Source: Thiorhodovibrio frisius (GTDB lineage Bacteria; Pseudomonadota; Gammaproteobacteria; Chromatiales; Chromatiaceae). Taken from it: a stretch of DNA of 64,000 nt. The number at the start of each line of letters is the position of its first letter. Position 1 is the stretch's first letter. The position numbers and the translations under genes are program-made. Shown piece after piece: positions 41,859-45,075 of this stretch. The notes beneath the pieces are model-generated. The model saw only the letters and a list, made by a program, of their open reading frames with translations. It did no database searches and had not been told where the DNA came from. Location of the stretch: contig NZ_CP121471.1 in the NCBI RefSeq assembly GCF_033954835.1, positions 4,396,501-4,460,500 on the forward strand, read 5' to 3'.

Positions 41859-42848
41859 TCAGCCGGCCGCCTCGCGCTGCTTGCGCCGGCGTTTCAGCCA
41901 GACATCCAGACCCTGGGCGTTTAACTCGGTATCCACCGCCAGCAGCGCACGGATGTGCTCGGCCTCCAAGCGCACGCCATGAGCCTGGGCCGCAGCCACC
42001 AGGCTGTCGGCCACAGCAGTTTTGAGCCGCGCGAGCCGGCCGTCCTCGGCCTGTTCTTGCTGACCTGAAGCATCCTCGCCCAATTCTTCCTCACGCAAGG
42101 CCACCTCGGCCAGTGTGGCAATGCTTGCCCTGAGCTGCCCCCCCAATGCCGCCGGGGCATCAACGCGGCCAAAATGCGTCAGGAACATCATCTGCGGCGC
42201 GACCTCAAGTAGCCGTTCGACACTGGCCTGCCAGGCAGTCGGGTCGAAGGCCACGGGCGTGGTGGGCGCGAACAGCCAGGGGCCGGCCTCGGTATAAAAC
42301 TCCGGATAGGCAATGCCGAAAGTATCTCCGGTAAACCAACCCCGGGTGCGCTCGTCGAACAGACAGCCGTGATGGTTGGCATGCCCAGGGGTGTCGATAA
42401 AACGCAGGATGCGCCCGCCAAGATCAAGAGACTGTTCGTCTTGCGCCAGCTCAACACGCGACTCGGGGATGGGTGTCAGGGCACCGAAATGACGCTCGAA
42501 CTCCTCGGCGCCATAAACAGCCGTGGCGCCCGCAATCAGCTTGGCGGGATCAATCAAATGCGGCGCGCCCTTGGGATGCACGATCAGACGTGCATTGGGG
42601 CAGGCCTGCAGCAGGGCACCGGCAGCACCGGCATGGTCGAGATGCACATGCGTCGGAATCACCATGTCCACATGCTCAGGCGTCAGACCGATCTCTGCGA
42701 CGGCATCAAGCAGTCGCGGGAGCGCGCGGGCAACGCCAGTATCGACAAAGGCCAGACTGTCGCCGCCGCGTATCAGATAACTGGCAGCCAGTCGCGGCCG
42801 GTAGAGATCTGTGTCGATGCAATAAATACCCTCAGCAACACTTTCCAT
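41859..42848 (-). CDS. MBL-fold metallo-hydrolase
   Basis: Metallo-beta-lactamase superfamily hydrolase of 329 residues. Metal-binding motifs are visible: THVHLDHAGA (HxHxDH), DTPGHANHHGCLF (His), GWFTGDTFGI (Asp) and MFLTHFGRVD (His). The C-terminal 100 residues are helical and rich in Glu and Ala, with AEHIRALLAVDTELNAQGLDVWLKRRRKQRE at the end. It lies 40 bp behind the small ParA partner gene on the same strand. The substrate is not evident; glyoxalase II- or lactonase-like activities are possible. Confidence 0.88.
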   Translation of the reverse strand: MESVAEGIYCIDTDLYRPRLAASYLIRGGDSLAFVDTGVARALPRLLDAVAEIGLTPEHVDMVIPTHVHLDHAGAAGALLQACPNARLIVHPKGAPHLIDPAKLIAGATAVYGAEEFERHFGALTPIPESRVELAQDEQSLDLGGRILRFIDTPGHANHHGCLFDERTRGWFTGDTFGIAYPEFYTEAGPWLFAPTTPVAFDPTAWQASVERLLEVAPQMMFLTHFGRVDAPAALGGQLRASIATLAEVALREEELGEDASGQQEQAEDGRLARLKTAVADSLVAAAQAHGVRLEAEHIRALLAVDTELNAQGLDVWLKRRRKQREAAG

Positions 42849-42888: not shown

Positions 42889-43161
42889 TCAATCCGGCCA
42901 CACTCGGCGCGCACTACTGTAGCCGCTGCTGCCAGTCGCAGGCGCTGTCTGCGCCTTTTTTCGCGCGCTGCCTTTGGCAGCCGCAGCGCGCGGCCTTGGC
43001 TGTTGACTTTCAGTTGGGACCGAGGCTTCTGACATCCTGGGCGCGGCAGCTTCAATCGCCTTGGAGGCGCCGTCAGACTCACCTACCCCCGACTCACCGC
43101 CGGTCTTGGCCTTGCGAATGGAATCGATCAACTGACGTTCGGTCTTGCTCGCGGCAGTCAT
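42889..43161 (-). CDS. Small disordered ParA-partner protein, McdB-like
   Basis: A 90-residue protein coupled to the ParA gene by an ATGA overlap. The N-terminus (ASKTERQLIDSIRKAKTG) is basic and likely helical; the middle is low-complexity Ala/Ser/Pro/Gln/Lys and probably disordered; the C-terminus is SSARRVWPD with a single Trp three residues from the end. Basic N-terminal segments commonly stimulate ParA-type ATPases, and a disordered body with a terminal Trp recalls McdB, the carboxysome-positioning adaptor. Homology cannot be shown by eye, so the name is withheld. Confidence 0.7.
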   Translation of the reverse strand: MTAASKTERQLIDSIRKAKTGGESGVGESDGASKAIEAAAPRMSEASVPTESQQPRPRAAAAKGSARKKAQTAPATGSSGYSSARRVWPD

Positions 43162-43787
43162 GGGCGAAATATCTCCTCAATGAGTTGTTCTATCTCGGCG
43201 ACGGCATCAGCACCACGGCGGCCGCTCTGAAAAATTGTCCGCCCCTCCAGTGCGCACAGGCGATGGATAGAGCGCCGCCGCAGCATGGAACTCGCCACCG
43301 GCAGGTCCAGTTCGGCGACTGCCTCGGGCATCAGGCGTGACAGGGTCGTGCGCGGTTCGATCTGGCTCATCACGATAAAGCCGCGCAGGTGCGGATTCTC
43401 GGCTCGCAGTTCGGCGATGACCCGTGCGATGGGCGCCGTCGCCCAGAGGTCCATGGGCGAGGGCTGCACCGGGACCAACGCAATGTCAGCCAAACGCAGC
43501 GCACGAGCGCTCTGCTCGGACTTGATCGACGGCGGGCAGTCGATGATCAGGTGCTGGTGGCTGTCGCTCAGCGCCTTGACCGTGGACTCAAGCCCATGGG
43601 CCACGGCGACCACCGGCGGCAGGCCCGGGCGATCTTCCCCCACCAACCGCCACTGATAGGCCGACTGCTGCGGATCGGCATCAATCAGCATCAGGCTGTC
43701 ATTGCGCAGCAACCCGGCGGCCAAGCTCATAGCCAGGGTTGTCTTACCGGTCCCGCCCTTGTTGCTGACCACGGCAATAATGGCCAC
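43158..43787 (-). CDS. ParA/MinD-family ATPase (McdA-like)
   Basis: Deviant Walker-type ATPase of 209 residues. The P-loop KGGTGKTT spans residues 10-17 with the signature lysine K10, followed by the switch I segment DADPQQSAYQW and Walker B IIDCPPS. The length is that of small, single-domain ParA proteins that position cargo (for example McdA, PpfA or MipZ-like) rather than of chromosomal ParA with an N-terminal HTH. No parB or parS-like site adjoins; instead a small basic, disordered protein overlaps the 3' end. A role in intracellular positioning is likely; the cargo is unknown. Confidence 0.88.
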   Translation of the reverse strand: MAIIAVVSNKGGTGKTTLAMSLAAGLLRNDSLMLIDADPQQSAYQWRLVGEDRPGLPPVVAVAHGLESTVKALSDSHQHLIIDCPPSIKSEQSARALRLADIALVPVQPSPMDLWATAPIARVIAELRAENPHLRGFIVMSQIEPRTTLSRLMPEAVAELDLPVASSMLRRRSIHRLCALEGRTIFQSGRRGADAVAEIEQLIEEIFRP

Positions 43788-44959: not shown

Positions 44960-45075
44960 TCGGTTCTGGGCCGAGTGACAGCCACGGGGGACGCCGTGAA
45001 TCCATCCATGGAGGCTTCGCGGCGGCATTCTTGCCGCCGAGACCTCCGTGGCCGTCACTCGGCCCAGAACGAGCC
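44960..45075. repeat. About 115-bp inverted-repeat element, copy 1
   Basis: Terminal arms of about 25 bp (GGTTCTGGGCCGAGTGAC at the left, its inverse GTCACTCGGCCCAGAAC at the right) enclose a core containing ACGCCGTGAAT, GGAGGCTTC and an inner hairpin CGGCGGCA/TGCCGCCG. A homologous element is at 63008-63136. MITE- or BIME-like; no transposase is nearby. Confidence 0.8.

Follow-up and report, generated by a model that had tools for sequence, protein, structure and literature searches.

A distant alpha-McdAB gene pair of the published type 2 arrangement as the probable carboxysome-positioning system of Thiorhodovibrio frisius

Which cargo might be positioned by a ParA-type ATPase and its small low-complexity partner when the pair is encoded far from the cso operon? 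This question is raised by two overlapping genes in the 64,000-nucleotide stretch of DNA analysed here (the window). The first-pass annotation had likened them to McdA-McdB pairs, had counted carboxysomes encoded elsewhere among several possible cargos, and had regarded the pair as a candidate for an undescribed two-gene system. Judging from homology, motifs, genome content, co-occurrence and the single clade formed by distant pairs, we consider it very probable that the two genes encode an alpha-McdAB system for positioning carboxysomes, arranged in the way published as type 2. This system would most likely serve the carboxysome encoded 1.17 Mb away.

The gene pair and the cso operon of the same genome

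The reported anatomy of the locus, a ParA with the box KGGTGKTT overlapping a protein of 90 residues by ATGA, and a tryptophan three residues from the C-terminus of the latter, was borne out, with both ORFs on the minus strand (Table 1).

Table 1. Predicted features of the gene pair (window coordinates) and of the lone McdB encoded in the cso operon (coordinates of stretch L081)
Feature	Position	Strand	Remarks
alpha-mcdA, single-domain ParA-type ATPase	43158-43787	minus	209 aa, GTG start
alpha-mcdB type 1, low-complexity partner	42889-43161	minus	90 aa
ATGA overlap of mcdB start and mcdA stop	43158-43161	minus	four bases
Deviant Walker A box KGGTGKTT with signature lysine, McdA residues 10-17	43737-43760	minus	from 11-relative alignment
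Basic N-terminal segment KTERQLIDSIRKAK, McdB residues 6-19, presumed McdA contact	43105-43146	minus	
C-terminal RVWPD of McdB, presumed carboxysome-binding motif	42892-42906	minus	role from PMC11321042 (excerpt)
Lone McdB type 2, 70 aa, ending ARVWPD	L081 8774-8986	minus	directly after acRAF-like gene

The small protein begins with MTAASKTERQLIDSIRKAKTG and ends with ARRVWPD, its tryptophan being residue 88 of 90. Five of its first 24 residues are basic (net charge +2), and its middle is rich in Ala, Ser and Pro and of low complexity, as judged by eye and from composition. Searches against Pfam and PADLOC returned no match, and the match in NCBIfam was at chance level (E 0.76). Its length lies inside the range of 51-169 residues given for alpha-McdBs, proteins with an invariant WPD and the consensus R(V/I)WPD (PMC11321042, excerpt); the last 10 residues of the Halothiobacillus neapolitanus McdB suffice for carboxysome association (PMC11321042, excerpt), and the model for the McdAB system of this bacterium is summarised elsewhere (PMC12918739, excerpt). 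An alpha-McdB of type 1 is further expected to be almost entirely disordered and to have no coiled coil. The ATPase matches the NCBIfam family NF041546, 'ParA family partition ATPase', with 184.5 bits against a cut-off of 180. As is characteristic of alpha-McdA, it possesses a deviant Walker A box with signature lysine and has no large extension in mid-protein; as is characteristic of alpha-McdB type 1, the partner has a charged N-terminus and its gene directly follows mcdA.

The suggested inspection of the genome for cso genes led to an operon that contains a second McdB and in which no mcdA is present among the ORFs (L081). It spans C1:3.259-3.268 Mb, at a distance of 1.17 Mb from the pair (C1:4439389-4440287). 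The description of the pair as lying far from a carboxysome locus is consequently correct in terms of map distance, but the same genome does possess a cso operon. A family search placed CsoS2 at C1:3263957-3265330 and two BMC genes at 3260189-3260817. The operon, with all its genes on the minus strand, has the order that we take to be CbbL, CbbS, CsoS2, CsoSCA, CsoS4A, CsoS4B, two CsoS1, a ferritin-like, a pterin-dehydratase/acRAF-like and a 70-residue protein; the family search confirmed CsoS2, BMC, ferritin and pterin-dehydratase, and the other cso names are assigned from gene order. A LysR-type gene follows the 70-residue WPD protein, which is devoid of a basic N-terminus (net charge 0 in the first 24 residues). 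When the whole genome was scanned with the pattern CGN-(V/I/L/M)-W-P-D-stop, outside of which fall AGR arginines and other second residues, two matches were obtained, the mcdB of the window and the cso-operon protein. Likewise, the ParA of the window was the single strong match when its genome was searched for McdA; other ParA relatives in it include a ParA accompanied by ParB at 630 kb and a protein of 290 residues at 3.72 Mb.

A distant mcdAB pair, accompanied by a cso-operon mcdB that lacks both a charged N-terminus and an adjacent mcdA, corresponds to the alpha-McdAB type 2 of proteobacteria, in which mcdA and a downstream mcdB type 1 are distant from cso (PMC8262871, excerpt). We found no departure from this description (PMC8262871, excerpt), and the claim of an undescribed two-gene system had to be abandoned, since published systems already combine a distant alpha-mcdAB with another mcdB inside the cso operon (PMC8262871, excerpt). 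Why two distinct alpha-McdBs should be needed is, according to that paper, still to be determined (PMC8262871, excerpt). The beta-McdAB systems of cyanobacteria share with the pair a ParA-type ATPase and a low-complexity partner with a C-terminal Trp (PMC8262871, by its description, excerpt); beta-McdB is reported with a coiled coil, and the signature lysine seen in the McdA of the window is missing from beta-McdA type 1 (both PMC8262871, by its description, excerpt). An McdA of 43% identity is found in Halothiobacillus sp. LH_M7 (L116), also with an RVWPD-ending McdB (67 residues) directly downstream, but the pair of this bacterium lies with cso shell genes.

Conservation, co-occurrence and descent of the pair

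Among 55 genomes, the host's own included, the ParA was found in 13 (limit E up to 1e-20) and reached at least 42% identity in 11 of these; the remaining two (G023 and G024, 30-33% identity, unlike partners) were excluded from the alignments. The gene after the ParA encodes a small protein ending in R-x-WPD in all 11 aligned relatives. Residues K10, G11, G12, G14, K15, T16 and T17 of McdA are invariant among them, as are M1, L11, R16, K19, R86, W88, P89 and D90 of McdB. CsoS2 occurs in each of the 11 McdA genomes and in 18 of the 55 overall. In six of the 11 (L010-L015), CsoS2 or BMC-domain genes are situated on the same contig within about 10 kb, and upstream ORFs resemble, by eye, ferritin-like and pterin-dehydratase-like proteins; these are alpha-carboxysome loci. 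Conservation of the small protein is concentrated at its ends: relative to its two congeners, the protein of the window keeps 21 of the first 22 residues and 10 and 8, respectively, of the last 10; in the linker, 27 of 54 and 21 of 57 aligned residues are retained. Because the linker diverges rapidly, a direct search of the 55 genomes with the small protein detected few relatives (four matches besides its own, one of them weak: G045, E 0.002); the family becomes visible through its conserved ends and gene order. Both McdB proteins are present in all three species of the genus that were examined.

A survey of 210 genomes of the family with an McdA profile (limit E 1e-30) gave matches in 60, of which those with at least 269 bits, 43 genomes, were counted as McdA; the next score was 192. 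CsoS2 is present in 78 of the 210 genomes, namely in 40 of the 43 with McdA and in 38 of the 167 others (Fisher p 9e-18, uncorrected for relatedness). The three McdA genomes without a CsoS2 match are G127 (56% complete), G186 (83%) and G184 (99%), the last of which carries its McdAB pair at L269 on contig C45; in this genome, a contig may be missing, or McdAB may exist without carboxysomes. A WPD-ending partner accompanies McdA in all 43 genomes, directly in 41 and, when an over-long ORF start is allowed for, in two more (G182, G208). Absence of the partner from the relatives, named in the first-pass annotation as a finding that would speak against the pair, is thus not what we observed. With a WPD-ending protein encoded after the ParA in every one of the 43, the pair is not a product of chance. 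The McdA proteins of G188 and G189, members of the same family, are identical to sequences from Thiohalocapsa MAGs. The host is a phototroph, and its family appears to include Thiohalocapsa (Chromatiaceae).

In a scan of named genomes, the best 80 ParA loci among the matches listed were inspected. A WPD partner occurs in 50 of them, and for 38 of these the examined stretch also includes cso shell genes; among the 12 WPD loci that lack shell genes are some on short contigs. Cso shell genes accompany none of the 30 loci without a WPD partner, two of which (L121, L151) are on stretches that end right after the ParA.

In genera g1, g16, g24 and g76, 25 genomes have both a distant McdA and CsoS2, and in 23 of them the cso region contains the WPD ORF of a type-2 McdB; in the other two (G147, G183) this region stops at a contig end. 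The segment L-x(3,4)-R-xx-K lies within the first 40 residues of 40 of 43 type-1 proteins and within the first 60 residues of none of 48 cso-located type-2 proteins. Three type-1 proteins escaped this count: in G147 the motif comes just after residue 40, in G144 the N-terminus is masked, and the ORF start in G208 is over-long. Over their first 24 residues, type-1 proteins carry a mean net charge of +2.4 and type-2 proteins one of -1.6; since the starts were partly chosen by script and the sequences are related to each other, the p-value of this difference is nominal. Upstream of the type-2 gene, acRAF is the first carboxysome probe to be met in 47 of the 48 cases, at a distance of 17-230 bases; in G020, whose ORF start is doubtful, it is CsoS1. 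Cso-located pairs such as L015 have their mcdAB at this same site after acRAF.

For the descent of McdA, a tree of 92 rows was computed by a quick method without bootstraps; it comprises the 43 McdAs and two other ParAs of the family, 43 of the 80 named loci and four sequences from the class, and was rooted by choice on seven ParAs without WPD partners (branch support 79). The McdA of the window and 29 others form a clade (SH-aLRT 100) in which 28 rows are labelled distant and two unknown, 'distant' in draft genomes meaning another contig or beyond the examined stretch; distance is certain where both loci are on one contig, for example in G000 (the host), G001, G002, G025, G142, G144 and G148. 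The enclosing clade of 57 rows (SH-aLRT 97) contains 23 cso-located McdAs, and the seven ParAs without a WPD partner lie outside of it. Three changes between cso and distant positions suffice on the tree when only rows labelled in either way are considered, the other distant rows being those of Thiomicrorhabdus/Hydrogenovibrio and L110. The distant McdAs of the Chromatiaceae appear as one clade, as a single relocation would give. With the RVWPD signature and a ParA that groups with cso-encoded McdAs, the suspected likeness to McdA-McdB has come out stronger than initially claimed, and we regard it, at the level of sequence, as homology.

Cargo, mechanism and competing explanations

The cargo question finds its answer on sequence grounds in a tail of five residues that is common to the pair and the cso-operon protein. 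With the cso operon located 1.17 Mb away, carboxysomes encoded elsewhere are the option that gained support, and nothing pointing to PHB, sulfur globules or membranes as cargo emerged from this sequence analysis; because of the distance to cso, there is no operon-level tie between pair and carboxysome in the host genome. We infer all biochemical and cellular steps of the following mechanism from published work on McdAB. ATP-bound McdA dimers would coat the nucleoid. The C-terminal RVWPD of McdB type 1 would bind alpha-carboxysomes, and its basic N-terminus would bind McdA, thereby stimulating ATP hydrolysis and release. Carboxysomes would consequently track the gradient of McdA and become spaced. 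The McdB type 2 of the cso operon would represent a carboxysome-binding tail without the McdA-binding head. A genus with both McdBs, together with relatives that possess type 2 only, offers natural material to test the need for two McdBs.

The relocated pair could conceivably have changed its cargo to sulfur globules, PHB or chromatophores, leaving carboxysomes to McdB type 2. Its distance of 1.17 Mb from cso, the cso operon's own WPD protein, and G184 with a pair and no CsoS2 match fit such a scenario; nevertheless, the WPD tail has been retained throughout the relocated clade and CsoS2 is present in 25 of the 27 McdA genomes of genera g1, g16, g24 and g76, so that we view a change of cargo as quite improbable.

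Far less credible still is a ParA of plasmid or chromosome partition with a small ParB-like or ParG-like partner, an idea that draws on the single-domain build of the protein and on its closest solved sequences, the plasmid partition protein ParF and a chain named ParA (117 bits each). The partner matches no DNA-binding family in Pfam or NCBIfam, and ParB adjoins another ParA, that at 630 kb. Grouping with partition proteins had been named as a further finding against the pair: the ParA of the window does stand with the McdAs, apart from the seven ParAs without a WPD partner, in a tree that contains neither ParF nor other known plasmid ParAs. It is just as hard to believe that the ParA alone is real and the small ORF spurious. 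A linker of low complexity and poor conservation might create this impression, but both ends of the protein are conserved and it occupies the same place in 43 of 43 genomes, with varying length. An alpha-McdAB system of type 2 hence remains the reading that we prefer.

McdB type 2 in genomes with no McdA found, and further observations

Of the 38 family genomes with CsoS2 and without an McdA of at least 269 bits, 26 have a WPD protein, two do not, and in 10 the regions are cut short; in cso regions of at least 8 kb, a WPD ORF is carried by 24 of 26, the exceptions being G136 and G138. The WPD protein of G019 is on another contig (L073), and that of G204 ends with NPVWPD. Twelve of the 38 genomes were searched again at E 1e-8, and the best ParA scored at most 124 bits. 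The 26 WPD loci are L231, L233, L235, L236, L238, L240, L242, L244-L246, L248-L251, L253, L255, L257, L258, L261-L263, L265-L267, L073 and L264. Some of the genomes (G092, G093, G095, G145, G185) are drafts from genera in which other members do possess McdA, and in such drafts incompleteness may account for its absence. In G033 and G179, the protein begins like a type-1 McdB but has prolines in the helix region, which suggests decay of a putative McdA-binding head.

As 26 of these 38 genomes keep the WPD protein, McdB type 2 may act without McdA. We attach just short of even credence to the idea that it is an McdA-independent carboxysome protein, beyond an accessory of a distant McdAB. If so, mcdA would have left the operon and the remaining mcdB would have lost its McdA-binding head; the McdB tail would then have a second, selected role, for instance in shell association or condensation, or type 2 might compete with McdB type 1 where both occur. 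A search of the literature, with the founding paper (MacCready 2021) outside its scope, gave no pointer to cso loci with McdB type 2 and without McdA, and Mcd proteins are not mentioned in the excerpt of PMC9164163. The retention of McdB type 2 without McdA is possibly a new side result.

Several other features of the genome deserve mention. A lone 207-residue BMC-domain protein, presumably CsoS1D-like, is encoded away from the cso operon (L085 4364-4987; G000 C1:4640364-4640987). A second small ParA (211 residues), followed by a protein of 193 residues without a Pfam match, is found downstream of an AcrB-type transporter gene (L087 5528-6787; G000 C1:545528-546787); the two might constitute another ParA pair. 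Photosynthetic reaction-centre genes are present, with two copies of a gene pair of equal scores about 15.5 kb apart (G000 C1:828031-829689 and 843533-845191), so that a part of the photosynthesis cluster may have been duplicated in tandem.

In the window, a metallo-beta-lactamase-fold gene (41859-42848) comes 40 nt after mcdB and has the same orientation. It is found downstream in all three species of the genus, with larger gaps in the congeners (L091, L092). We considered an operon of this gene with the pair and rejected it, as neither in G025 nor in G017 was the gene detected in the vicinity of the pair; its presence here seems to be a matter of local context. At the start of a DUF1848 gene, before a UvrD/Rep-type helicase gene, positions 44963-45070 of the window form an inverted repeat with 28-nt arms that are 93% complementary and 52 nt apart, and could be a hairpin element, either REP-like or small and mobile.
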